A stretch of 64,000 nt of DNA from Pseudonocardia oroxyli (GTDB lineage: Bacteria; Actinomycetota; Actinomycetes; Mycobacteriales; Pseudonocardiaceae), in NCBI RefSeq assembly GCF_900102195.1, contig NZ_FNBE01000006.1, positions 1 to 64,000 of the forward strand, written 5' to 3'. Below the pieces are notes generated by a model. That model made no database searches. It was not told where the DNA came from and was given only the letters and a program-made list of their open reading frames with translations. Every line of letters begins with the position of its first letter. The first letter of the stretch is position 1. The position numbers and the translations under genes are program-made. Shown one piece after another: positions 22,279 to 64,000 of the stretch.

Positions 22279-23456
22279 TCGAGCAGGTCTTCCGCGAGGA
22301 GCGCGGGCGGCTGCTCGCCGCCCTCGTGCACCGCTACGGCGACCTCGACCTGGCCGAGGAGGTGTGTTCCGAGGCCGTCGAGGCCGCGCTACGCACCTGG
22401 CCGCGAGACGGTGTGCCCGCGAAACCCGGTGCCTGGCTGTTGACCACCGCCCGCCGCAAGGCCCTCGACCGGCTGCGCCGGGACAAGGCCTACGCGCAGC
22501 GGCTCGCCCTGATCGCGGCGGAGGGCGAACGCCACGAGCCCGCGCCGGAGCTCGCGGACGGCCTGCCCGACGAGCGGCTGCGCCTGTTCTTCACCTGCGC
22601 CCACCCCGCGCTGGCGCCGGAGGACCGCACCGCGCTGACCCTGCGCTGCCTCGCCGGGATGGAGACCCCGGAGGTGGCCCGCGCCTTCCTCGTACCCACC
22701 GCGACGATGGCGCAGCGGATCGTCCGGGCGAAGAAGAAGATCCGGCAGGCGCGGATCCCGTTCCGCGTCCCCGGGCCGGACGAGCTGCCCGCGCGGCTGC
22801 CCGGCGTCCTGCAGGTCGTCTACCTGGTCTTCACCGCCGGGTACGCCGACGACCGGGTGGACCTCGCGGAGGAGGCGGTCCGGCTGGGCCGGATCCTGCA
22901 CCGGCTCCTGCCGGCACGCGAGGTCGCCGGCCTGCTCGGGCTGATGCTGCTGACCCGCGCCCGGAACGGGACGGTCCCGCTCGAGGAGCAGGACCGGACC
23001 CGGTGGGACGCCTCGGCGATCGCCGAGGGCACCACGCTCGCCGAGACGTCGCTGACCGGCGGGCCGCCCGGACCCTACGGGGTGCAGGCGGCGATCGCCG
23101 CGCTGCACGCCGAGGCCCCGTCGGTCGCGGAGACCGACTGGGCGCAGATCGTCGCGCTCTACGACGTGCTGTACCGGCTGAGCCCCGGCCCCGTCGTCGC
23201 GCTGAACCGGGCGGCGGCCCTCGCCCTGCGGGACGGGCCGGAGGCCGGGCTCGCGGCCCTGCCCGCGGACGCCGAGCTCCGGACCTACCCCCTGCTGCCC
23301 GCCACCCGCGCTGACCTGCTCGAACGGCTCGGTCGCACGGCCGAGGCCATCGCGAGCTACGAGGAGGCGCTGCGCCTGGCGGGCTCCGACGCCGAACGGG
23401 ACCGGCTCCGGAACAGACTGGACCGAATCGGACAAAACACTAAGCTCGGGGAATGA
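22275..23456 (+). CDS. ECF42-type RNA polymerase sigma factor with C-terminal TPR-like extension
   Basis: A 393-residue protein. Sigma region 2 covers about residues 1-70 (VFREERGRLLAALVHRYGDLDLAEEVCSEAV; WLLTTARRKALDRLRR) and region 4 about 110-165 (LTLRCLAGMETPEVARAFLVPTATMAQRIVRAKKKIR). A DUF6596/TPR-like C-terminal domain of about 200 residues (PGVLQVVYLVFTAGYADD; ALYDVLYRLSPGPVVALNRAAAL; EAIASYEEALRLAG) completes the ECF42 architecture. In ECF42 proteins the extension is required for activity and replaces an anti-sigma factor. The start overlaps the DGPF stop, and the DUF1707 gene overlaps its own stop. Confidence 0.93.
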   Translation: MIEQVFREERGRLLAALVHRYGDLDLAEEVCSEAVEAALRTWPRDGVPAKPGAWLLTTARRKALDRLRRDKAYAQRLALIAAEGERHEPAPELADGLPDERLRLFFTCAHPALAPEDRTALTLRCLAGMETPEVARAFLVPTATMAQRIVRAKKKIRQARIPFRVPGPDELPARLPGVLQVVYLVFTAGYADDRVDLAEEAVRLGRILHRLLPAREVAGLLGLMLLTRARNGTVPLEEQDRTRWDASAIAEGTTLAETSLTGGPPGPYGVQAAIAALHAEAPSVAETDWAQIVALYDVLYRLSPGPVVALNRAAALALRDGPEAGLAALPADAELRTYPLLPATRADLLERLGRTAEAIASYEEALRLAGSDAERDRLRNRLDRIGQNTKLGE

Positions 23457-44861: not shown

Positions 44862-44867
44862 GTTCTG

Positions 44868-44940
44868 TAGTCCCGACGGGATTTGAACCCGCGCTACCGC
44901 CTTGAGAGGGCGGCGTCCTAGGCCGCTAGACGACGGGACC
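44868..44940 (-). tRNA. tRNA-Glu (anticodon CTC), copy 1
   Basis: Read on the minus strand from 44940: acceptor GGTCCCG with CGGGACT, D arm region TCGTCTAGCGGCCTAGGACG, anticodon loop with CTC (CCGCCCTCTCAAGGCGG), T arm GCGGG TTCAAAT CCCGT. CCA is not encoded. All 73 bases are identical to the second copy at 45001-45073. Confidence 0.95.
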
Positions 44941-45000
44941 AGGAACAGCACACAACACTTTCTCCAGCATCGAAAACCGCAGCTGTGCTGGGCTTTCGCG

Positions 45001-45073
45001 TAGTCCCGACGGGATTTGAACCCGCGCTACCGCCTTGAGAGGGCGGCGTCCTAGGCCGCTAGACGACGGGACC
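45001..45073 (-). tRNA. tRNA-Glu (anticodon CTC), copy 2
   Basis: Identical over 73 bases to the tRNA at 44868-44940; the copies are 133 bp apart. The 60-bp spacer between them is not repeated. It lies upstream of copy 1 in the direction of transcription. Confidence 0.95.
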
Positions 45074-45117
45074 TGGACATGCTGATGAAATTGCTGGAAA
45101 CAGTGTGTGTGTTTCCG

Positions 45118-45189
45118 CTGGGGTACCAGGACTCGAACCTAGACTAACTGAACCAGAATCAGTCGTGCTGCCAATTACACCATACCCCA
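45118..45189 (-). tRNA. tRNA-Gln (anticodon CTG)
   Basis: Read on the minus strand from 45189: acceptor TGGGGTA/TACCCCA, the typical U1-A72 pair of tRNA-Gln, D arm GGTGTAATTGGCAGCAC, anticodon loop ATTCTGGTT (CTG), T arm TAGG TTCGAGT CCTGG and discriminator G. It lies between gltX and the two tRNA-Glu genes on the same strand, so all four may be cotranscribed. Confidence 0.95.
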
Positions 45190-49814: not shown

Positions 49815-52800
49815 TCACCCGTTCGGGTCAGGCAGGACCGCCGCTCGGGTGCCCTCCCCGTTCTGCGGGACCACTACCAGCAGCGCTCCGCCGGGGTCCG
49901 GGAGGCGGGTGCCCGCGTCGGCGGGGGTCAGCAACGGAGCGTCTCCGGCGGGGACCCAGGGCGCGAGATCGACCACGTCGACCGGTGCGGTGGGCTCGCC
50001 CCCCGGCGTCGTGACGTCCACCGGCCCGTAGTCGCCCTCGACCCTGACCTGCATGGACAGCGGTCTCCCCGGCGCGGCGCCGAGCACGGACAGCCGCACC
50101 GGCAGGACCCAGGTGTCGGTGTCGAAGACCCGGGAGTCGACGTCCCCCGGGAGCCCGTTGACCGGGAGGGTGTCCAGCTCGCGGCCCTCGGCGTCGACCA
50201 CCCGAGCGACCAGCACGTCGGTCTCGGGGACCTTCACCAGCCCGACGGCGCGGTCGACGACCCCGTCGCCGTCCACGTCGAACCCGACGGTCGGGACGGT
50301 CGTGGCGCCGACGTCCGGCAGGGTGCCCCACATGGACACGGCGATGCCGATCGTGTCGCCCGCCCGAGCGGCGCCCACCCAGCGGACGTCCCCGCCCCGG
50401 CCGGTCTCCCCCGTGACGCACCCGAGCGCCCGGCCCGGCGCGCAGGCCGGCAGCTCGGGGCTGCTCGCGAGCAGGGAGAACACACCCGCCCGGGACCGGT
50501 AGGCCTCGCTGCCGCTCCCCTGGTCCAGGCCCGCGCCGCCCAGCACGATCCCGTCGCCGCCGCGCTGCGCCGTGAGTGTCGAGACCGGTCTCGGGGCCGA
50601 GGTGACCGGGACGCGCACCTCGCGGCCGCCCGCGGTGAGCACGATCCGGCCGGACGCGTCCGCGACGTACTGCCGGGGTCGTCCGTGCTGGACCGGGCTC
50701 ATCGTGGGGTCGAGGGTGTGTCGCAGCGCGTCGGCCTGCGCGGTGAGGGTGACCGTCAGCGCGCCGGGCACGCCCGGCGCCACGGTGATCGACACCCCGG
50801 GCACCGTCGTGATCGGCTCGTACCGGGCGGCGGAGACCGGCCCGCTGACCTGGATCGTCCGGGTCCGGGTCACGGTCTGCCCGGCGGGCACCTCGACGAC
50901 CCCGAACCCGACGCCGACGGCCGCCCCGTCGCCCGCCAGGACCGGTGGGTCGAGGGCGGCCCTCGCGTCCACCCGCCCACCACCGACCCGCATCGGCGCC
51001 TGGAGCCCGCTGGGCGCGGTGGCGGCTCGGACGTCCGCGGCCGTGGTGACGATCGCCGTCTTGACCTGCGTCGGCGTCCAGTCGGGGTGGGCCTCGCGGA
51101 CCAGCGCCGCGACGCCGGCGACGAACGGCCCGGCCATGGACGTGCCGGTCTCGCTGATCCGGCCCGAGCCGGTGCCCGCGGCGGCCGACACGATCGTCTC
51201 GCCGGGCGCGGCCACGTCCGGCTTCACCCCGGGGCCGCGGGTGCCCCGCGCGGAGCTCTCGCTGACGGTGTCGGCGATCCCGGGGACCCGGGTCGCCACG
51301 GTGCCCGCGAGGGTGCCGTCGAGGTGCACCCGGACCGGGCCCGCGCCGCGCAGGACGGCGGTCGAGGGGCCGTCGAGCTGGAACATCGGGATCGTGGCGT
51401 TGCCGGCGATCCGGGCGCCGCCCTGGTCACCGTCGGTGGCGAGCAGGACGCCGACCGCCCCCGCGGCCTGGGCGTTGTCCGCGCGCACGGCCGAGCCGCA
51501 GGCCCGTTCCGCGGGCCACTCCAGCAGGGCGATCGCGCCCCGCACTCCGTCGAACGGGGCGCAGCCCTCCCCGCCGACGGCCACGACCGGCGCCGTGACG
51601 TCGAGGGTCCCCGTGAAGTCGACGCCGTACTGGCCGGTCAGCTGCGGCCCGCCCACGATCTGCGCCGCGTCGAGGAGCACGCCCGCGTCCCGGACGCTCG
51701 CCACGGCGATCGCGCCGGGTGCGGTCGCCGGCGCGCCGACGGCGTCGGTCACGTCGCCGCCGTTCCCCGCGGCGGCGACCACGGTGACCCCGGCGTCGAC
51801 CAGGCGTGCGACGAAGTCGTTCACCGGGTCGTCGGCGGGCGCGAAGTCCGTGCCGAGGGAGAGGTTGACGACGTCCAGCCGGTCGGTGAGGTCGCCGTCG
51901 CCGTCGGGGTCCAGGGCCCGGTCGAGGGCCTGCGGCAGGAGCGCGGTCGCACCCGCGCAGCCGAAGACGCGGATCGCGTAGAGCCGGGCCTGCGGCGCGG
52001 CGCCGGGCCCGATCCGCATCGCGTCGAGGCTCTCGGGGCCCAGCGCGGAGTAGTCGCCGGTGAAGGTGCTGCCGTCCGCGTTCACGCCGTAGCCCGCGGC
52101 GCTCCCGGCGACGTGGGTGCCGTGGCCCTCGCAGTCGAGCGGGTCGTCGTCGGGGCGCGGGACGGTGCGGGACGGGTCGGTGCTCGCCGAGTCGTAGTCG
52201 TCGCCCGCGAGATCGACGCCGCCGACGACCTTCGCCGTCGGGAACGTCCGGGGCCCGCGGAAGGCCTCGACGGTGCCGGGTCCGCCGAAGTCCGCGTGCG
52301 TGTAGTCGATGCCCGTGTCGACGATCCCGATCCGGACGCCCGCGCCGAGCCTGCCGGTGTCCTGCCAGGTCCGCATGGTCCCGGCGAGCTGGGCGGCCGA
52401 GGCGTTGCTCGGGCGGGCGTCGCTGATCCGGCGGACCGAGCGCACCCCCGGGAGCGCGGCGATCCGGGCGGCCGCGGCGGGGTCTGCGCGGACCGCGACG
52501 CCGGGCACGGCGTTGTGGGTGCGGTAGAGCTCGCGCTCGCCCTCGGCGCCGCGCAGCTGGTCCAGCACCGCGTCGGCGTGGGCGTCGACGCGGGCGCGGG
52601 TGCCCTCGACCATCCGACGGGCGGCGTCCTCGCCCCGGGGCAGCGCGGCCCGCCAGTCCGCCTCCGCGGCGCTGTCGTCGAACTCGACGAACACGGCGCT
52701 CGGCGCGGTGCTGGGCGCGGTGACAGGCGCGGTGACAGGCGCCGCTTCCGCGGGTGGCGCGACGACGACCACCGCCAGCACCGCCGCGACGACCACCATC

Positions 52801-52817
52801 ACCCTGCGCCACGGCAC
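49815..52817 (-). CDS. secreted S8 family serine protease (subtilase) with PA domain
   Basis: A 1000-residue secreted protease. Signal peptide at 1-26 (VMVVVAAVLAVVVVAPPAEAA), then an I9-like prodomain to about 155. The catalytic triad is Asp167 (IGIVDTGIDYTHADF), His232 (GHGTHVAG) and Ser560 (ETGTSMAGPF). A PA domain (CAPFDGVRGAIALLEWPAERACG) is inserted in the catalytic domain near residue 430, as in lactocepin-like subtilases. About 390 C-terminal residues are beta-rich with a probable fibronectin-like segment and no sortase motif, so it is secreted free. It would digest extracellular protein. Confidence 0.94.
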   Translation of the reverse strand: MPWRRVMVVVAAVLAVVVVAPPAEAAPVTAPVTAPSTAPSAVFVEFDDSAAEADWRAALPRGEDAARRMVEGTRARVDAHADAVLDQLRGAEGERELYRTHNAVPGVAVRADPAAAARIAALPGVRSVRRISDARPSNASAAQLAGTMRTWQDTGRLGAGVRIGIVDTGIDYTHADFGGPGTVEAFRGPRTFPTAKVVGGVDLAGDDYDSASTDPSRTVPRPDDDPLDCEGHGTHVAGSAAGYGVNADGSTFTGDYSALGPESLDAMRIGPGAAPQARLYAIRVFGCAGATALLPQALDRALDPDGDGDLTDRLDVVNLSLGTDFAPADDPVNDFVARLVDAGVTVVAAAGNGGDVTDAVGAPATAPGAIAVASVRDAGVLLDAAQIVGGPQLTGQYGVDFTGTLDVTAPVVAVGGEGCAPFDGVRGAIALLEWPAERACGSAVRADNAQAAGAVGVLLATDGDQGGARIAGNATIPMFQLDGPSTAVLRGAGPVRVHLDGTLAGTVATRVPGIADTVSESSARGTRGPGVKPDVAAPGETIVSAAAGTGSGRISETGTSMAGPFVAGVAALVREAHPDWTPTQVKTAIVTTAADVRAATAPSGLQAPMRVGGGRVDARAALDPPVLAGDGAAVGVGFGVVEVPAGQTVTRTRTIQVSGPVSAARYEPITTVPGVSITVAPGVPGALTVTLTAQADALRHTLDPTMSPVQHGRPRQYVADASGRIVLTAGGREVRVPVTSAPRPVSTLTAQRGGDGIVLGGAGLDQGSGSEAYRSRAGVFSLLASSPELPACAPGRALGCVTGETGRGGDVRWVGAARAGDTIGIAVSMWGTLPDVGATTVPTVGFDVDGDGVVDRAVGLVKVPETDVLVARVVDAEGRELDTLPVNGLPGDVDSRVFDTDTWVLPVRLSVLGAAPGRPLSMQVRVEGDYGPVDVTTPGGEPTAPVDVVDLAPWVPAGDAPLLTPADAGTRLPDPGGALLVVVPQNGEGTRAAVLPDPNG

Positions 52818-52907
52818 CCGCGTTCCCCTCCCACCGATCGGTGAGCGAAACGTAGATCAGCACAGGCAGGGTGACGCCGAGTCACACCCGATCCGCTGAC
52901 CCCCGCC

Positions 52908-52949
52908 CGTGAGCGGCGATCGTCGCTCGAGCGACGATCGCCGCTCACG
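52908..52949. repeat. family B palindrome, copy 2 (perfect)
   Basis: Left arm GTGAGCGGCGATCGTCGC (52909-52926), loop TCGA, right arm GCGACGATCGCCGCTCAC (52931-52948): since the loop is itself palindromic the whole 40 bp is a perfect palindrome, extended by a C/G pair. It lies 58 bp after the serA stop (minus strand) and 91 bp before the subtilase start. Nothing else is seen in 52818-53007. Confidence 0.95.
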
Positions 52950-53007
52950 ACGGGGTGATGGCCCGGGCCGAGCAGGCCCTCCCCCCGTCGGGAGAAGAGC
53001 CGCGCGC

Positions 53008-54615
53008 TCAGTCGTCGAAGCTGATCATCCGGGTGGTGCTCGCGCCGACGGAGGCGCCGATCGGCTCGAGCACGCCCGGGTCGATCGCCCGGTCCACGCG
53101 CAGCAGCATGATCGCGTCCGCGCCGTCCGTGGTCTGGCTGATCTGCGCGGCCTCGATGTTCACCGCGGCCTCGCCCAGCAGCGAGCCGACCCGGCCCATG
53201 ACGCCGGGGCGGTCCGCGTACTCCAGGAGCAGGACCTCCCCCTCGGCGCGCAGGTCGAAGTGGCGGCCGTTGACCTCGACGAGCTTCTCGACCTGCGCGC
53301 GGCCGGTGAGCGTGCCGGAGACGGTGATCGCCTCGCCGTCCGGCATGGCGGCGCGCAGCTGCACGACGGAGCGGTGGTTCTCCGACTCCGGGGCGGTGGT
53401 CAGCTCGACCGAGACGCCGCGCTCGGCGGCCAGCGCCGGGACGTTGACGAAGGTCACCTGGTCCTCGACGACGTGGTGGAACACGCCGCGCAGGGCCGCG
53501 AGGGACAGCACCGAGACGTCCTCCGACGCGAGCTCACCCGCGACGTCCACCGTGACGGAGGTGGGCACCCGACCCGCGACGGCGTGCAGCACGGTGCCCA
53601 GCTTCTGCACCAGCGGCAGCCACGGCCGGACCTCCTCGCCGACGGCGCCGTTGATCTGCACGTTCACCGCGTCCGGCACGAACTCGCCCGCCAGGGCGAG
53701 CTGCACCGAGCGCGCGACGTCCGTGCCCGCGCGGTCCTGCGCCTCGGTCGTCGAGGCGCCGAGGTGCGGGGTGACGGTGATGTTCTCCAGCTCGAACAGC
53801 GGGCTCGAGGTGGTGGGCTCGGTGACGTAGACGTCCACGCCCGCGCCGCCGACGTGCCCCGACCGCACGGCCTCGGCCAGCGCGTCCTCGTCGATCAGGC
53901 CGCCGCGGGCCGCGTTGACGATGATCACGCCCGGCTTGGTGAGCGCGAGCTGGTCCTTGCCGATGAGGCCGAGGGTCTCGGGGGTCTTCGGCAGGTGGAT
54001 GGTGATGAAGTCCGCGGTCGCGAGGAGGTCCTCGAGGCTGAGCAGCTCGATGCCCAGCTGCGCGGCCCGGGCCGGGGCGACGTAGGGGTCGTAGGCGACG
54101 AGCCGGACGTCGAACGCGCCGAGGCGCTGCGCGACCAGCTGGCCGATCTTGCCCAGGCCCACCACGCCGACGGTCTTGCCCTGCAGCTCCACGCCGCCGT
54201 ACTGCGAGCGCTTCCACTGCCCCTGGCGCAGCGAGGCGTCCGCCGCCGGGATGTGCCGGGCGGTGGCCAGCAGCAGCGCGACCGCGTGCTCGGCGGCCGA
54301 CACGATGTTCGAGGTGGGGGCGTTGACGACCATGACGCCGCGGGCCGTGGCGGCCGGGACGTCCACGTTGTCGAGGCCGACGCCGGCGCGGGCCACCACC
54401 TTCAGGCGGGTCGAGGCGGCGAACACCTCCGCGTCGACCTTGGTGGCCGAGCGGACCAGCAGCGCGTCCGCGTCCGCCACCGCCTCGAGCAGGGCGGGTC
54501 GGTCGGTGCCGTCCACGTGCCGGATCTCGACCTCGGATCCCAACAGCTCCACGGCGGAGGGCGCGAGCTTCTCCGCGAGCAGGACGACGGGACGGGTGGC
54601 GGCTGCGCTACTCAC
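53008..54615 (-). CDS. serA: D-3-phosphoglycerate dehydrogenase
   Basis: A 535-residue enzyme that starts serine synthesis by oxidising 3-phosphoglycerate. It shows VGVVGLGKIGQLVAQRLGAF (NAD fold), ARGGLIDEDALAEAV (substrate Arg), VDVYVTEP and PHLGASTTEAQDRAG (catalytic His). The intervening allosteric substrate-binding domain of the long actinobacterial type covers about 310-455, and a C-terminal ACT domain (LLLEYADRPGVMGRVGSLLGEAAVNIEAAQ) senses serine. A GTG start at 54615 follows GGAG. TAGACT upstream may be the -10. Confidence 0.96.
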   Translation of the reverse strand: MSSAAATRPVVLLAEKLAPSAVELLGSEVEIRHVDGTDRPALLEAVADADALLVRSATKVDAEVFAASTRLKVVARAGVGLDNVDVPAATARGVMVVNAPTSNIVSAAEHAVALLLATARHIPAADASLRQGQWKRSQYGGVELQGKTVGVVGLGKIGQLVAQRLGAFDVRLVAYDPYVAPARAAQLGIELLSLEDLLATADFITIHLPKTPETLGLIGKDQLALTKPGVIIVNAARGGLIDEDALAEAVRSGHVGGAGVDVYVTEPTTSSPLFELENITVTPHLGASTTEAQDRAGTDVARSVQLALAGEFVPDAVNVQINGAVGEEVRPWLPLVQKLGTVLHAVAGRVPTSVTVDVAGELASEDVSVLSLAALRGVFHHVVEDQVTFVNVPALAAERGVSVELTTAPESENHRSVVQLRAAMPDGEAITVSGTLTGRAQVEKLVEVNGRHFDLRAEGEVLLLEYADRPGVMGRVGSLLGEAAVNIEAAQISQTTDGADAIMLLRVDRAIDPGVLEPIGASVGASTTRMISFDD

Positions 54616-54710
54616 GATGCTCCACAGGTGGGCGGACGGGTCACCAGGAGTCTAGGAGGCCCCGCCGACGGTTCTCGCCCCGAGGTGGCGCACCCGATAC
54701 CACGCGGCGG

Positions 54711-55718
54711 TCACGCGTGGGTGAACTGTGCCGAATCGGACATGAGCCCGGCCAGGAGCTCGAAGCTGCGGAACCACCCGGCCCGGTCGACGACGGGGCA
54801 GGCGACGATCAGCTCGTCCACCCCGACCCGCTGGGCGAAGTCCTCCAGCCAGGTCTCCACGGTGTCCGGCGTGCCGACCGCGGTGTACTTCATCATCCCG
54901 AGGATCTGGCGGCCGGACGGCGTGCTCAGCACGGCCTCCGCCTCCTCGTCGGTCAGCCGGTGGCCACCGCGGGAGAGGAAGAGCTTGACCCGGCTCAGCT
55001 GCGCCCGGTGCTGCCGCTCGGCGGCCTCCTCCGCGGAGTCCGCGGCGATGACGTTGACCCCCGCCAGCACCCGCGGCGCGGCGAGGTGGGCCGACGGCCG
55101 GAACTCGGAGCGGTAGGTCTGCACGGCGGCCTCGAGCTGGTCGGGCGCGAAGTGCGAGGCGAACGCGTAGGGCAGACCGAGGATCGCGGCCACCTGGGCG
55201 CCGTAGAGCGACGACCCGAGGATGAACAGCGGGACCCGGGTGCCCCGGCCCGGGTAGGCGTCGACCCCCTCGATCAGGGACTGGCCGTCGAGGAAGGCCT
55301 GCAGCTCCTGGACGTCCTGGGGGAAGGTCTCCGACGCCCGCGGGTCCCGGCGCAGCGCGCGGAAGGTGTTCTGGTCGGTGCCCGGCGCCCGGCCCAGCCC
55401 CAGCTCGATGCGGCCGGGGAAGAGCTCGGCCAGGGTGCCGAACTGCTCGGCGATCTGCAGCGGCGAGTGGTTGGGCAGCATGACCCCGCCCGCGCCGAGC
55501 GTGATCGTCGAGGTCTGCGAGGCGACGTGCCCGATCATGACGCTCGTCGCCGACGAGGCGATGGAGCGCATGTTGTGGTGCTCGGCGTACCAGATGCGCC
55601 GGAAGCCCCAGCGCTCCGCGCGCTGCGCCAGCTCCACGCTGGCCTGCAGGCCCTCGCGCACCGACTCGCCCTCCGCGACGGTCGCCAGGTCGAGGATGGA
55701 CAGCGGGGGCAGGGACAC
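54711..55718 (-). CDS. LLM-class flavin-dependent oxidoreductase
   Basis: A 335-residue bacterial-luciferase-like monooxygenase: [86 protein letters not shown]. Actinobacterial members often use FMNH2 or F420. The GTG at 55718 is chosen because GGAAGG lies 8 nt upstream; a GTG at 55727 would overlap that ribosome-binding site. It lies downstream of ilvC across palindrome B3. Confidence 0.9.
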
Positions 55719-55828
55719 GACGGGCACCTTCCGATCGGGATCACTCCCCCGTGCCAACACGCCCGCGCCCCGATCTCTTCCGCACACACGAACGGCGCCC
55801 CCGGGATCCGGGAGCGCCGCCGGTGGTC

Positions 55829-55868
55829 GTGAGTGGCGATGGTCGCTCTGGCGACCATCGCCGCTCAC
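55829..55868. repeat. family B palindrome, copy 3
   Basis: Left arm GTGAGTGGCGATGGTCGC (55829-55846), loop TCTG, right arm GCGACCATCGCCGCTCAC (55851-55868), with a single G-T wobble. It begins 4 bp beyond the ilvC stop codon (minus strand). Its right arm is identical to that of copy 1. Confidence 0.95.
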
Positions 55869-55872
55869 AGGG

Positions 55873-57455
<1,583 letters not shown>

Positions 57456-57463
<8 letters not shown>

Positions 57464-59453
57464 CGGACTCCTCCAGGGCCTGGGCGGTGACGTCGGCGAT
57501 CTCGTCGACTCCCGCGGCCAGCTCGTCGCCCTCGAACAGCGGCCGGACGGCGCGGGCGGACATGATCTCGTCGTTGCCGGTGCCCGCGGCGACCATCGGC
57601 CAGACCTGGGCGTCCGCGCCGACGGTGAAGTCGATGACCACGGGCTGGTCGTTGATCTCCATGGCCTGCCGGATGACCGCGTCGACGTCGTCCTTCGACT
57701 CGGCCCGCAGCCCCACGCACCCCATCGCCTCGGCGAGGAGCTTGAAGTCCGGGATGCGGTGCTTGTGGGTGCCGAGGTCGGTGTTGGAGTAGCGCTGGTC
57801 GTAGAACAGCGTCTGCCACTGCCGGACCATGCCCAGGTTGCCGTTGTTGATCACGGCGACCTTGATCGGGATGCCCTCGATCGCGCAGGTCGCGAGCTCC
57901 TGGTTGGTCATCTGGAAGCAGCCGTCGCCGTCGATGGCCCACACGACCTTGTCCGGCACGCCCGCCTTGGCGCCCATGGCGGCGGGGACCGCGTAGCCCA
58001 TGGTGCCCGCGCCGCCGGAGTTCAGCCAGGTCCGCGGGTTCTCGTACTTCACGAACTGGGCGGCCCACATCTGGTGCTGCCCGACGCCCGCGGTGTAGAC
58101 CGCGTCCGGGCCTGCGATCGCGCCGATCCGCTCGATGACGTACTGCGGCGACAGCGAGCCGTCGTCCGGCCAGTCGTAGCCGAGCGGGAAGGTCGTGCGC
58201 CAGCCGTCGAGCTGGGCCCACCAGGCGCCGAGGTCGGTGAGCTGCTCGCCGCGCACGGCGTCGGTCAGCTCGACGATGATCTCCTTGGCGTCCCCCACGA
58301 TCGGGACGTCCGCGCGCCGGTTCTTGCTGATCTCGGCGGGGTCGATGTCCGCGTGGACGATCTTCGCGTCCGGCGCGAACGTGGCGAGCTGGCCGGTGAC
58401 CCGGTCGTCGAAGCGCGCACCCAGGGCGATCAGCAGGTCGGACTTCTGCATCGCCCCGACCGCGGCCACCGTGCCGTGCATGCCGGGCATGCCGACGTGC
58501 TGGCGGTGGCTGTCCGGGAACGCGCCGCGCGCCATCAGGGTGGTGACGACGGGGATGTTCGTGAGCTCGGCGAGCTCGAGCAGCTCGGCGTGGGCCTCCG
58601 CCTTGATCACGCCGCCGCCGACGTAGAGCACCGGCTTGCGCGCGGCCGCGATCAGCTTCGCGGCCTCGCGGATCTGCTTGCTGTGCGGACGGGTGGTGGG
58701 GCGGTAGCCCGGCAGCCTCAGCTCCGGCGGCCACGAGAACGTGGTCTGGGCCTGCTGCACGTCCTTGGGGATGTCCACCAGGACCGGGCCGGGTCGGCCC
58801 GTCGACGCCAGGTGGAAGGCCTCGGCGATCGCCCGCGGGATCTCCGCCGGGTCGGTCACCAGCATGTTGTGCTTGGTCACCGGCATGGTGATGCCGGTGA
58901 TGTCGGCCTCCTGGAACGCGTCCGTGCCGATGAGCGGCCTGGCCACCTGCCCGGTGATGGCGACGACCGGGACGGAGTCCATGTGGGCGTCCGCCAGCGG
59001 GGTGATCAGGTTGGTCGCGCCCGGCCCGGAGGTGGCCATGCAGACCCCGACCTTGCCGGTGGCCTGCGCGTAGCCGGTGGCGGCGTGCCCGCCGCCCTGC
59101 TCGTGCCGGACGAGGACGTGCCGGACCGACGTCGAGTCGAGCAGCGGGTCGTAGGTCGGCAGGATCGTCCCGCCCGGGATGCCGAAGACGACCTCGCAGC
59201 CGATGGACTCGAGTGACCGGACGATGGACTGGGCGCCGGTGACCTGCTCCGGCCCGGATCGCGGGCCGGGGACGACGGAGGCGGGCTCGTGGCGCACCTC
59301 GCCGGTCTTGTCGGGTCGATGCTGGTCGGCGCGCTGCTGGTCGGGTCGCTGCCCCGGGACGCCGGTCGGGCGTCCCGCGGGCACTCCGGTACGTCCCGGC
59401 GGCGGTGCCGGTTTCGGTCCCGGGGTGCCGGGACGGGGAGTCGCGGTGGTCAT
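57456..59453 (-). CDS. ilvB: acetolactate synthase large (catalytic) subunit
   Basis: A 665-residue ThDP enzyme condensing pyruvate with pyruvate or 2-oxobutyrate, the first common step to valine, leucine and isoleucine. It shows [15 protein letters not shown], the catalytic Glu in [20 protein letters not shown]-domain [15 protein letters not shown] and the ThDP motif [15 protein letters not shown]...NNGNLGM. A Pro/Gly/Arg-rich N-terminal extension of about 65 residues is longer than usual and probably disordered. The ATG at 59453 follows GAGGCAGAG. Transcription is governed by the leader attenuator upstream. Confidence 0.97.
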
Positions 59454-59496
59454 CTCTGCCTCACTACTGAGCCGAACATCATGGGTGCCGGACATG

Positions 59497-59533
59497 AAAA
59501 AACCCCCGTCGCCTGGGCCAGGCGGAACGAGGG
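59497..59533 (-). terminator. transcription attenuator of ilvBNC
   Basis: On the minus strand CCCTCGT plus CGCCTG pairs with CAGGCG plus ACGGGGG (59533-59503), loop GCC, with a two-base bulge. The stem is followed by six T (59502-59497), a textbook intrinsic terminator. It lies 35 nt after the stop of the leader peptide and 44 nt before the ilvB ATG, the position of a translation-controlled attenuator. Confidence 0.9.
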
Positions 59534-59568
59534 TGGCGCGTCGGGTCCGAGTACTCGAAAGGTCCTCC

Positions 59569-59616
59569 TCAGACGGTGACGCGCCTGAAAAGTACGAGAA
59601 TTCGGAGGTCGGACAT
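59569..59616 (-). CDS. ilvL-like: ilvBNC leader peptide
   Basis: A 15-codon frame encoding [15 protein letters not shown] with a run Ile-Leu-Val-Leu, i.e. all three branched-chain residues, and 7 of 15 residues branched-chain. When charged tRNAs are scarce the ribosome stalls here, favouring an antiterminator over the hairpin at 59503-59533. Such peptides are known before ilvB in Corynebacterium and Streptomyces. A TAGCGT hexamer 7 nt before the ATG suggests a leaderless start. The competing pairing was not resolved by eye; the self-complementary CGAGTACTCG between peptide and terminator may take part. Confidence 0.88.
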
Positions 59617-59623
59617 GGCGAGG

Positions 59624-59654
59624 ACGCTAGCACGCCGCGGGCGCGGGGCGTCAA
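59624..59654 (-). promoter_or_regulatory. ilvBNC promoter
   Basis: TTGACG (59654-59649) and TAGCGT (59629-59624) on the minus strand, spaced 19 bp, 7 nt before the leader-peptide ATG. The -35 is close to consensus; the spacing is 1-2 bp longer than ideal. Confidence 0.65.
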
Positions 59655-59693
59655 CCGGCTGGGACACCCCGTCCCGGATCGTGGGAGGCGGGG

Positions 59694-60458
59694 TCAGAAC
59701 GGGACCTCCGTCGCCAGCAGGCCGGTGCCGCGTTCGCGCAGGCTGAGGGCCCGACAGAACTCCACGGCGTCCAGCTCGAGGGGCTCCCCACCGCCGCCGA
59801 ACTCCCAGCGGCCGCCCGCCGGGCCGGTGAGCACGAGGGTGCAGGGCGCGCCGTGCCTGCCCGCCCACTCGGTCACGACGTCGGCCACGAGGACGCCGTC
59901 GTGGGCGGCGGTCAGGACGGGTTCGCGGCCGGTCGCCCGCGCGATGTCGACGCGGTGCATCCAGGAGTCCCGGGTGAGGATCGTGTCCAGCAGGAAGCCC
60001 ATCGTCCAAGGCTCCCGCGCCCCGCCCGGCAGCTCGACCCCGCCGACCGGCATCGCCCGCAGGGCCGCGGGCCTGCGCCGCCTGCCTGCCGCCGCGCGCG
60101 GACCGGCCGCGGCGTAGCGCTCGACGATCTCCGCGGGCGCCATCCCGCCGCGCCGCGCGACCTGGCGGGCCGTCATGTGGTCGGTGCTGTTGCCGCCCGC
60201 CCGGTGCTGCGCCCACAGGGACAGGGCGAACTCGCCGGCGAAGCGCGGCAGCGACGCCCCGCACTCGGCCATGCCGAGCATGTGGCTCGCCATGTCCCGC
60301 ACGTCCCAGCCGGGACAGTCGGTGGGCCGGGCCCAGTCGTCGGACCCGAGCCCGCCGAACAGGTCGAGGCCGCGGGCGTACTCGGCGGCGGCGAGGTCCA
60401 TCGCGGTCTCGTGGTCCAGGGCGGCCCGGCGAGCGGAGGTCGGGGCGGGGGCGGTCAT
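59694..60458 (-). CDS. maleylpyruvate isomerase / mycothiol-dependent (DinB-like) family protein
   Basis: A 254-residue protein with the MDMPI N-terminal domain: DWARPTDCPGWDVRDMASHMLGMAE (metal His in ASHMLG) and later TILTRDSWMHRVDIARATGR (second His). These helical-bundle metalloenzymes often use mycothiol. A C-terminal SCP2-like domain (GAPCTLVLTGPAGGRWEFGGGGEPLELDAVEFCRAL) completes the pattern. The ATG at 60458 follows GAGGAGC and overlaps the TGA of the TetR gene (ATGA), so the regulator and enzyme are co-translated. Confidence 0.87.
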   Translation of the reverse strand: MTAPAPTSARRAALDHETAMDLAAAEYARGLDLFGGLGSDDWARPTDCPGWDVRDMASHMLGMAECGASLPRFAGEFALSLWAQHRAGGNSTDHMTARQVARRGGMAPAEIVERYAAAGPRAAAGRRRRPAALRAMPVGGVELPGGAREPWTMGFLLDTILTRDSWMHRVDIARATGREPVLTAAHDGVLVADVVTEWAGRHGAPCTLVLTGPAGGRWEFGGGGEPLELDAVEFCRALSLRERGTGLLATEVPF

Positions 60459-61129
60459 GGCAGCTCCTCGGGTGGTGGGGCGGGCGGGTCCTCGGGTGGT
60501 GGGGCGGGCGGGTCCTCGGGTCGTGCGGTGGGCGGGTCCTCGGTTGGGCGGGGCAGGGCGAGGTCGTCCGCCAGCAGGTCGACCATCCGGCCGAGCAACC
60601 GGACGTAGCGGTCGCCGCCGGGGTCGTTGGACCACTGGGCGGCCACGATCCCGCCGAGGGCGGCGACGAACAGGTCCACGTCGGCGTCGGACACGGCGGG
60701 CCCGAGCGCGCGGAACCGGGCGACGGTCCGCTCCATCGCCCGCAGCGAGGGCGCGTAGCTCTCCGGGCTCGGGGCGAAGTCCGGCAGCACGCGTTGGTCC
60801 ATGAGCTGGTGGCGGACGAGGTCGGCGGTGGCGAAGCCGACATAGAACCGGGCGATCGCGTGCAGCGCCGCGCGCGGGTCGGCGGGCAGCTCCACGGCCT
60901 CGAAGGCCTCGGCGAACTCCTGCCACGCCTGCCCGAACATCGCGTCGTACAGCGCGTTCTTGGAGGCGAAATGCGTGTACAGCGACGGCGCGCGCATGCC
61001 GACGCCGTCGGCGACCGCCCGCAGGGTGAGCCCGCCCAGACCGTCCCGGCGGGCCACCTCCCAGGCGACGGCGAGGATCTCGCCGCGGGCCGACGCCCGC
61101 CGCCGATCCTGCCAAGTTTCTCCTAACAC
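60455..61129 (-). CDS. TetR-family regulator with Pro-rich repeated tail
   Basis: A 224-residue regulator: helix-turn-helix LTLRAVADGVGMRAPSLYTHFASKNALYDAMF (residues about 33-65), then a ligand domain with WHG-type helices. The C-terminal 25 residues are an unusual tandem repeat, EDPPAPPP, encoded by 24-bp DNA repeats. The GTG at 61129 is the family-consistent start. It is co-translated with the downstream MDMPI-type enzyme, which is its likely target operon. Confidence 0.9.
   Translation of the reverse strand: MLGETWQDRRRASARGEILAVAWEVARRDGLGGLTLRAVADGVGMRAPSLYTHFASKNALYDAMFGQAWQEFAEAFEAVELPADPRAALHAIARFYVGFATADLVRHQLMDQRVLPDFAPSPESYAPSLRAMERTVARFRALGPAVSDADVDLFVAALGGIVAAQWSNDPGGDRYVRLLGRMVDLLADDLALPRPTEDPPTARPEDPPAPPPEDPPAPPPEELP
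60465..60545 (-). repeat. 24-bp tandem repeat in the 3' end of the TetR gene
   Basis: Three units of TCCTCGGGTGGTGGGGCGGG plus CGGG start at 60465, 60489 and 60513, followed by a partial one. The first two are identical and the third diverged. Being 24 bp, they keep frame and encode PPAPPPED units. The region is unstable in principle and may vary between strains. Confidence 0.9.
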
Positions 61130-61196
61130 GATTCGGAACTATGGCCGTGATCAGCGATGACGTCCAGTCTCGCCGCTCGAACGGCGCAGTGGGACG

Positions 61197-61655
61197 ATGG
61201 TGTGCGTGAGCGCAGAGAAGTCCCGGCCCGGCATGGCCGAGGGACACGTGTCCGCAGCCGACCCGGTCGCCCGCGGGGAGACGCCGTCCCGCCTGGTCTT
61301 CCGCCGGTCCTCGCTGGCGCTCGCGGGCGCGGCCTTCTTCCTCGTCGCGGCGATCCCGTTCGCGTTCGGGGCGCCGTGGTTCTGGCTGGTCTACCTGGTG
61401 CCGCTCGGCTACGCGTACTGGATCCTGCGGCTACGCACGGTGGTCGACGACGAGTCGGTCACCGCACGTCGTCTCCTCGCGAGCAGGCGCGTACCGTGGT
61501 CGGAGATCAGTTCGCTGCGACTGGGCAAGAAATCCCGGGTCAGCGCGGTGCTGACCGACGACTCGGAGCTACCACTCCCGACCGTCCGCGTCCGAGACCT
61601 TCCCGCGCTCGCCGCCGTCTCCGGCGGCAGGCTGCCCGACCCGGCTGGAGAGTAG
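61197..61655 (+). CDS. membrane-anchored PH-domain protein
   Basis: A 152-residue protein. Two membrane helices at about residues 40-75 ([39 protein letters not shown]) precede a bacterial PH domain ([51 protein letters not shown]). The function is unknown; such genes often precede ilvD in actinobacteria. Its stop is 4 bp from the ilvD start, so the two form an operon. A GTG at 61206 is an alternative start. Confidence 0.82.
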
Positions 61656-61659
61656 AGCA

Positions 61660-63501
61660 ATGCCGGCCCTTCGTTCCCGAGTCACCACCCACGGCCGCAA
61701 CGCGGCCGGAGCCCGTTCCCTGTGGCGCGCCACCGGCATGGGGGACAGCGACTTCGGCAAGCCGATCGTCGCGATCGCCAACTCCTACACCCAGTTCGTG
61801 CCCGGCCACGTGCACCTCAAGGGCATGGGTGACCTCGTGGCGTCGGCCATCACGGCCGCGGGTGGGGTGGCGCGCGAGTTCAACACCATCGCCGTCGACG
61901 ACGGCATCGCCATGGGCCACGGCGGCATGCTCTACTCGCTGCCCTCCCGCGAGGTCATCTCCGACGCGGTCGAGTACATGGTCAACGGGCACGCCGCGGA
62001 CGCGCTGGTCTGCATCTCCAACTGCGACAAGATCACCCCGGGCATGCTGAACGCCGCGATGCGGCTCGACATCCCCACGGTGTTCGTGTCCGGCGGGCCG
62101 ATGGAGGCGGGCAAGGCCGTCGTCGTCGGGGGTGTGGCGCAGGCGCCGACCGACCTGATCACCGCGATCTCGGCGTCCGCGTCCTCCGCGGTCGACGAGG
62201 ACGGGCTGGCCGCCGTCGAGCGCTCGGCCTGTCCGACCTGCGGGTCCTGCTCGGGCATGTTCACCGCGAACTCGATGAACTGCCTCACCGAGGCCCTCGG
62301 GCTCTCGCTGCCGGGCAACGGCTCCACCCTGGCCACGCACTCCGCGCGCCGCGAGCTGTTCCTCGAGGCCGGGCGCACGGTCATGCGGCTGTGCGAGCGC
62401 TGGTACGGGTCGGACGACGCGTCGGTGTTGCCGCGCAGCATCGCCACCCGGGAGGCGTTCGAGAACGCGATGGCGCTCGACGTCGCGATGGGCGGCTCCA
62501 CCAACACGGTGCTGCACATCCTCGCGGCCGCGCAGGAGGGCGAGATCGACTTCACCCTCTCCGACATCGACGCCGTCTCCCGCCGGGTGCCGTGTCTGTC
62601 GAAGGTCTCGCCGAACTCGGACTACCACATGGAGGACGTCCACCGGGCCGGTGGCATCCCCGCCCTGCTGGGCGAGCTCTACCGGGCCGGCCTGCTGAAC
62701 ACCGGGGTCCACTCGGTGCACTCGCCGTCGCTGGAGGAGTGGCTGGCCGAGTGGGACATCCGGGCCGAGTCGCCGTCGGAGCAGGCGGTCGAGCTGTTCC
62801 ACGCCGCGCCCGGCGGGGTGCGGACCACGCAGGCGTTCTCCACGGACAACCGCTGGTCCTCGCTGGACACGGACGCCGCGGGCGGGTGCATCCGGGACCT
62901 GGAACACGCCTACACCGCGGACGGCGGGCTGGCGGTGCTGCGCGGCAACATGGCCGAGCGCGGCGCGGTGATCAAGACCGCGGGCATCCCCGAGGACATC
63001 TGGCGGTTCGAGGGCCCGGCCCTGGTCGTGGAGAGCCAGGAGGAGGCCGTCTCGGTCATCCTCCACAAGACGATCAAGCCCGGTGACGTCCTGGTGGTCC
63101 GCTACGAGGGCCCCGCGGGCGGGCCGGGGATGCAGGAGATGCTGCACCCCACCGCGTTCCTCAAGGGCGCGGGCCTGGGCGCGAAGTGCGCGCTGGTCAC
63201 CGACGGCCGCTTCTCCGGCGGCTCCAGCGGGATCTCGGTCGGGCACGTGGCGCCCGAGGCCGCGGCCGGCGGCGCGATCGGCCTCGTCGAGAACGGCGAC
63301 CGCATCCTGATCGACGTCCGCGAGCGCAGCTTGTCGATCCTCGTCGACGACGAGGTCCTGGCCGAGCGGCGCGCGAAGATGGACGCGAGCGAACGCCCCT
63401 GGACCCCGAAGGACCGGGACCGGGTGGTCAGCAAGGCCCTGCGCGCCTACGCCGCCATGGCCACGTCCGCGGACACCGGCGCCGTCCGCCACGTCCCCTG
63501 A
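61660..63501 (+). CDS. ilvD: dihydroxy-acid dehydratase
   Basis: A 613-residue Fe-S dehydratase, next to last step of valine and isoleucine synthesis. It has cluster and metal ligands in [13 protein letters not shown] and [24 protein letters not shown], and the C-terminal [19 protein letters not shown]. The length is normal. It begins 4 bp after the PH-domain gene with GGAGAG upstream. Palindrome B4 starts 3 bp after its stop. Confidence 0.98.
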
Positions 63502-63504
63502 CCC

Positions 63505-63546
63505 CGTGAGTGGCAATAGTCGCCCGGGCGACTATTGCCACTCACG
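63505..63546. repeat. family B palindrome, copy 4
   Basis: Left arm GTGAGTGGCAATAGTCGC (63506-63523), loop CCGG, right arm GCGACTATTGCCACTCAC (63528-63545). It is a perfect 40-bp palindrome (the loop is self-complementary), extended by a C/G pair. Compared with copy 2 it has three changed base pairs (C-G to T-A, G-C to A-T, C-G to A-T), each altered on both arms. Confidence 0.95.
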
Positions 63547-63572
63547 AGGGGGTCGGGCATAGGTTCGATCAC

Positions 63573-64000
63573 ATGAGCCTTCCCACCCGCACGCTCGGCG
63601 CCCTGACCGTCTCCGCACAGGGACTCGGGTGCATGGGCATGTCCCAGTCCTACGGCGCCGGGGACGACACCGAGTCGATCGCCACCATCCACCGCGCCCT
63701 GGACCTGGGCGTCACGCTGCTCGACACCGCCAACGTGTACGGGGCCGGGGTCAACGAGGAGCTCGTCGGCCGGGCGATCAAGGACCGGCGGGACGAGGTC
63801 GTGCTGGCCACCAAGTTCGGGGTCGTCCGGACGGACGGCGTCCAGGGGGCGCGGGGGGACGCCGCGTACGTGACGCAGTGCTGCGACGAGTCCCTCGCGC
63901 GGCTGGGCGTGGACCACATCGACCTCTACTACCAGCATCGCGTCGACCACTCCGTCCCGATCGAGGAGACGTGGGGTGCGCTCGCCGAGCTGGTCGAGGC
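63573..64000 (+). CDS. aldo/keto reductase (partial, runs off the window)
   Basis: The first 142 codons of an AKR13-like reductase: [23 protein letters not shown] start, catalytic Asp and Tyr in LLDTANVYG, Lys in VLATKFG and His in YYQHRVD. It reduces carbonyls with NADPH. TAGGTT 7 nt before the ATG at 63573 indicates a leaderless transcript. The frame is open at position 64000. Confidence 0.93.

Follow-up and report, generated by a model that had tools for sequence, protein, structure and literature searches.

Genes and regulatory features at the ilvBNC locus

The window analysed here, the first 64,000 nucleotides of contig NZ_FNBE01000006.1 of Pseudonocardia oroxyli, carries an ilvBNC operon on its reverse strand, which is preceded by a compact leader region. 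The following features were annotated:

59649..59654, reverse strand: -35 element TTGACG
59624..59629, reverse strand: -10 element TAGCGT, of the actinobacterial TANNNT type
59569..59616, reverse strand: leader reading frame of 15 codons plus TGA, predicted to be leaderless
59590..59601, reverse strand: putative control codons ATT CTC GTA CTT (Ile-Leu-Val-Leu)
59562..59595, reverse strand: hairpin H1 within the end of the leader reading frame, dG -14.6, excludes H2
59535..59585, reverse strand: hairpin H2, GGCGCGUC...GACGCGCC, dG -25.0, abuts the terminator
59497..59534, reverse strand: intrinsic terminator, stem 59534-59502 (dG -21.2, two-nucleotide bulge UC) and U-tract
57456..59453, reverse strand: ilvB, acetolactate synthase large subunit (NF005860, 1123 bits, cut-off 881)
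56954..57463, reverse strand: ilvN, acetolactate synthase small subunit (NF008864, 227 bits, cut-off 119)
55873..56877, reverse strand: ilvC, ketol-acid reductoisomerase (NF004017, 558 bits, cut-off 336)

The identities of ilvB, ilvN and ilvC, as well as that of the divergently oriented ilvD, are well over the NCBIfam cut-offs. Directly 5' of ilvB, a short reading frame with a run of Ile, Leu and Val codons is present (ATG TCC GAC CTC CGA ATT CTC GTA CTT TTC AGG CGC GTC ACC GTC TGA, 59616-59569), and between this frame and the ilvB ATG at 59453 lies the intrinsic terminator, the stem of which is followed by six T, the last at position 59497. A sequence-only reading of this DNA had described a 15-codon peptide with an Ile-Leu-Val-Leu run, a bulged G+C-rich stem and six T ahead of ilvBNC, and all of these elements are indeed present on the reverse strand. 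The same reading had called the promoter good. This holds by the actinobacterial TANNNT standard, with a spacer of 19 nt between TTGACG and TAGCGT and 7 nt between TAGCGT and the ATG at 59616, but not by an E. coli-consensus promoter scan, which found no promoter at the leader because the -10 element is a TANNNT box. Similarly, a simple E. coli-style terminator scan missed the leader terminator because its stem is bulged.

The upstream gene on the same strand ends with a stop codon at 59694, approximately 40 nt before TTGACG and 78 nt before the leader reading frame. It corresponds to a long reading frame (59694-61247), whose last 254 residues have no NCBIfam match. A gene for an MsnO8-family luciferase-like monooxygenase (54711-55889, TIGR03558) is located on the same strand between ilvC and serA. 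Elsewhere in the window, two tRNA-Glu genes and one tRNA-Gln gene of ordinary appearance were found at 44867-45189, and ARAGORN called a tRNA-Asp with the anticodon ATC at 22645-22735, which is probably a false positive.

How often such an arrangement arises by chance was calculated on the 64-kb window. Both strands were searched for reading frames of 8-32 codons with at least four consecutive Ile, Leu or Val codons and a start 5-9 nt after a TANNNT box. The leader was the sole match in the real DNA, and it is followed by a terminator, whereas 60 randomised versions of the window (first-order Markov), again searched on both strands, produced a single reading frame of this kind and none with a terminator. 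The combination of leader and terminator is not due to chance, its expectation lying far below one. The 120-nt leader also folds better than its dinucleotide shuffles (z = -2.3), 4 of 200 of which were as good.

Conservation of the leader and its promoter

The comparison drew on ilvB loci from 20 congeneric genomes and from named genomes in GTDB, each locus being verified by its in-frame ilvB protein (70-90% identity). Among the named relatives, species of Pseudonocardia are the closest, for example Pseudonocardia pini with 90% identity over ilvB (locus L022). A leader with a downstream T-run was called in 88 of 101 loci, 80 of which are distinct. Among the 13 loci without a called leader, the six that we inspected (L009, L058, L065, L070, L083, L086) do carry a related leader with its terminator, both missed by the filters, and at least three others (L041, L074, L078) contain too little upstream DNA. 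The ilvB upstream regions of Micromonosporaceae (L040, L042, L052, L057, L058, L065, L070, L073, L081, L086) carry a diverged version, in which short leaders end with GTA CTT ATC/ACC TGA, the hairpin (GAGCGCAC...GTGCGCT) and the terminator are different, and the promoter surroundings also differ (TGTGGGATCAGTTGACTC).

The peptide core, the promoter and the gap between -10 element and start codon are conserved over the 80 distinct relatives. A TANNNT box is located 6-8 nt before the ATG or GTG in 71 of the 80 distinct leaders (6 nt in 5, 7 nt in 53 and 8 nt in 13), as compared to a background of 2.1% for TANNNT at exactly 7 nt before RTG triplets picked at random from this DNA. TTGAC is found upstream of the box in all 71 of these, with a spacer of 17-19 nt in 68. 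In contrast to this promoter spacing, purine runs resembling a Shine-Dalgarno sequence precede the leader start in only 2 of 80 distinct relatives, and the P. oroxyli leader, with its gap of 7 nt, has none. Other TTGAC/TANNNT promoters positioned 6-8 nt before a start codon exist in the same genome (G000; C6:6173, C20:343960, C27:178084, C30:483936, C46:45269, C50:329780); these lead into reading frames of at least 71 codons and not into short leaders.

Because the gap of 6-8 nt is conserved and 5' ends have been published for relatives, the prediction that the leader begins right at the 5' end of its transcript, which had been made from the TAGCGT 7 nt before the ATG, is supported by strong sequence evidence. 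Its description as an unusual variation of classical attenuation is not supported, as leaderless ilv leaders have been described since 2000 in Corynebacterium glutamicum (Morbach 2000, as cited in PMC11857589) and also in Streptomyces lividans.

One might argue that the terminator is constitutive and merely lowers ilvB expression or ends read-through from the upstream gene, and that the short reading frame next to it arose by chance, in particular as no more than about 78 nt separate the end of the upstream gene from the leader. However, the promoter sits between this gene and the terminator, and a reading frame with a run of branched-chain amino acid codons, of which chance would yield far fewer than one, has been retained in 80 distinct relatives. 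We therefore regard a constitutive terminator as very improbable.

Conserved RNA hairpins in the leader

The RNA structures were compared in an alignment of 57 sequences. The sequence-only reading had suggested a covariation analysis of the leader in related genomes, and this analysis shows that the pairing of both H1 and H2 is kept with compensatory changes. H2 is paired in 95% of cells, far above slid versions of the helix, and changes on both sides occur at 4 pairs versus 1.8 in shuffles (0 of 500 as high). H1, which the final codons of the leader form together with its stop codon, is paired in 71% of cells versus at most 48% when slid, and has a covariation score of 0.188 versus 0.145 in shuffles (0 of 500). 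The two hairpins are mutually exclusive, with GGCG being common to both. In the terminator, the six outermost pairs hardly vary among the 57 species; column-wise covariation is uninformative for the inner stem, as its arms are not aligned correctly from one clade to another. The last position of H2 is 59535 and the first of the terminator 59534, so that the two abut.

Compact conserved hairpins ahead of an ilv operon could also belong to a T-box or to a ligand-binding riboswitch, such as the ppGpp class, which is known to precede ilv genes in other organisms. Yet the conserved 5' part of this RNA is a reading frame, a search of the 12 kb around the leader (52000-64000) with Rfam covariance models yielded nothing at E <= 1, and tests of the related Corynebacterium ilvB-II motif gave no indication that it binds ppGpp (PMC10272879). 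An RNA sensor of either type thus appears extremely improbable.

Search for an antiterminator

We used a ribosome-occlusion model, resembling the modelling done for Mycobacterium tuberculosis (PMC13236596), to calculate upstream pairing of the 5' arm of the terminator. In the window, this pairing was 0.09 with a ribosome stalled at GTA versus 0.30 with a ribosome at the stop codon. Before the 3' arm exists, the mean values were 0.24 for a stalled ribosome, 0.33 for a ribosome at the stop codon and 0.37 without a ribosome. In this model, stalling hence gave no rise in upstream pairing, and the direction was not the expected one. Duplex tests, in which the energies of four candidate partners with their own or a swapped terminator 5' arm were compared, gave no signal for the 3' arm of H2 (p = 0.43), the stop-codon region (p = 0.98) or the bases following the control codons (p = 0.35). 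For the control codons themselves, a weak signal was obtained (p = 0.04 before multiple-test correction), which stems from the sequences of Amycolatopsis-type, rhodococcal and mycobacterial leaders and is not seen in Pseudonocardia. In those three groups, control codons reading UCGUAC or GCUcGUA are complementary to the terminator 5' arm, GUGCGA/GUACGA or UACAGC (L023, L025, L026, L030, L035, L044, L063, L100; L068, L085, L087; L055, L089, L090, L097). A mutual-information scan over all pairs of alignment columns revealed no clean new helix, and its top pairs are mostly non-standard and look phylogenetic. A switch through a trinucleotide shared by two hairpins, as in C. glutamicum, was considered and does not fit, since H2 and the terminator of the window have 0 nt in common, which likewise holds for 52 of the 57 species.

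Neither the stall model, the duplex tests nor the H2/terminator boundary revealed an antiterminator overlapping the terminator of the window sequence, and by these approaches classical switching with a defined antiterminator was not demonstrable for this sequence. Equilibrium folding is a poor model of a kinetic switch, so that this null result does not weigh strongly against attenuation. One might speculate, with considerable reservation, that in Pseudonocardia and most of its relatives a stalled ribosome defeats the terminator without any mutually exclusive antiterminator helix; for example, the choice between H1 and H2 could influence the pausing of the polymerase or affect the terminator next to H2. 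If so, this mode of switching would be unlike both the trp scheme and the shared-trinucleotide scheme of C. glutamicum.

Rare codons in the leader

Codon usage was also computed on the 64-kb window. In its GC3-rich reading frames, ATT accounts for 0.8% of Ile, GTA for 0.4% of Val and CTT for 0.7% of Leu codons, which places all three among the rarest codons of the window (<1% each); ilvB, ilvN, ilvC, ilvD and serA contain no GTA and no ATT at all. Nevertheless, every leader that could be assigned contains GTA, in 79 of 79 distinct relatives. It is preceded by CTC in 67 and followed by CTT in 43, GTA in 13 and ATC in 12 of them. Within Pseudonocardia, no convincing pairing between control codons and terminator arm was observed (-1.8 kcal/mol in the window). 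Because the control codons have no convincing partner in the terminator arm within the genus, we infer that selection on tRNA supply explains their conservation better than such pairing does. The invariant rare codons, GTA foremost, likely serve as the sensor.

A model for the control of ilvBNC

We propose, with a probability of roughly 0.87 for the explanation as a whole, that the leader is a leaderless, ribosome-mediated attenuator of ilvBNC that responds to branched-chain amino acids. A role as ribosome-mediated attenuator, as the sequence-only reading had assigned it, is well supported by anatomy, conservation and homology to experimentally tested systems. The reading frame, the promoter spacing, H1, H2 and the terminator, together with their conservation, were observed here; leaderless initiation, stalling and the direction of control are taken over by analogy with relatives. 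Transcription would start at or within about 1 nt of the leader AUG, and the ribosome would load onto the leaderless mRNA and read Ile-Leu-Val-Leu, three of them as rare codons. When charged tRNAs are plentiful, the ribosome would reach the stop codon and the polymerase would halt at the GC-rich terminator, leaving a transcript roughly 120 nt long. Under a shortage of Ile, Val or Leu, the ribosome would stall at the control codons and disturb the foldings of H1 and H2, upon which the terminator would fail and ilvBNC would be made. In our literature search, no report of an ilvBNC attenuator for the genus Pseudonocardia was found.

Comparison with known attenuators

In the classical attenuators of the E. 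coli trp and ilv operons, a leader peptide with cognate codons is followed by an intrinsic terminator, as it is in the window. Unlike them, the P. oroxyli leader has no Shine-Dalgarno sequence, and no antiterminator overlapping the terminator was found in it.

Closer parallels exist within the actinobacteria. For M. tuberculosis ilvB1NC, attenuation was demonstrated in 2026 by a terminated transcript of about 120 nt and by ribosome occupancy in the uORF, and changing LVVI to AAAA abolished induction (PMC13236596). The uORF has an LVV core including GUA, the operon is the same, a terminated leader of about 120 nt is also predicted in the window, and the mycobacterial loci can be aligned with the window over both H2 and the terminator. 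In contrast, the leader peptide and the loop sequences differ, and the experimental proof belongs to M. tuberculosis, the window being known from its sequence.

The C. glutamicum ilvBNC leader, or Corynebacterium ilvB-II motif, also encodes a 15-residue peptide rich in branched-chain amino acids (MTIIRLVVVTARRLP in C. glutamicum) with a GTA control codon, and has a hairpin in the leader reading frame, a long second hairpin, a GC-rich terminator and the same operon order; the terminator 5' arm CCCUCG is seen in the C. ulcerans sequence. The C. glutamicum transcript starts one nucleotide from the leader start codon, a likeness to the start predicted for the window; a change of this codon lowers expression by 80%, and Val to Ala changes abolish valine-dependent expression (PMC11857589). 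Work from 2025 attributes switching to a GCC common to the antiterminator and terminator hairpins, mutation of which alters expression (PMC11857589). As the long hairpin and the terminator of the window share no nucleotide, the C. glutamicum scheme is not simply transferable.

In Streptomyces, the ilvL leaders of S. lividans and S. coelicolor resemble the window in their ILVL run, the R-V ending of the peptide, the terminator and the gene order ilvB(N/H)C (PMC8079986, PMC1262725), and S. lividans IlvL, MRTRILVLGKRVG, was reported to be leaderless in 2021 (PMC8079986). The difference is that the mode of control is disputed for S. coelicolor, where changes of candidate codons are reported in PMC1262725 not to affect regulation. 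That result, together with the lack of a detectable antiterminator in the window sequence, would fit a real terminator in a conserved RNA that is controlled independently of stalling at Ile, Leu or Val codons, either by leader translation alone or by another factor acting on the RNA. We consider this improbable, as codon replacement abolished regulation in both M. tuberculosis and C. glutamicum, and GTA is invariant in spite of its rarity, including in Pseudonocardia, where it has no obvious pairing with the terminator. The idea of a rare-codon sensor could be tested in the disputed Streptomyces case.

Candidate leaders of ilvB that are followed by a terminator had been listed for Corynebacterium, Mycobacterium and Streptomyces as early as 2005, when their mode of regulation was called unclear (PMC1262725). 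The P. oroxyli leader is a further member of this known and partly tested actinobacterial family of ilvB attenuators. The leaderless ilv attenuator would be no oddity but a trait general to Pseudonocardiales and Mycobacteriales.
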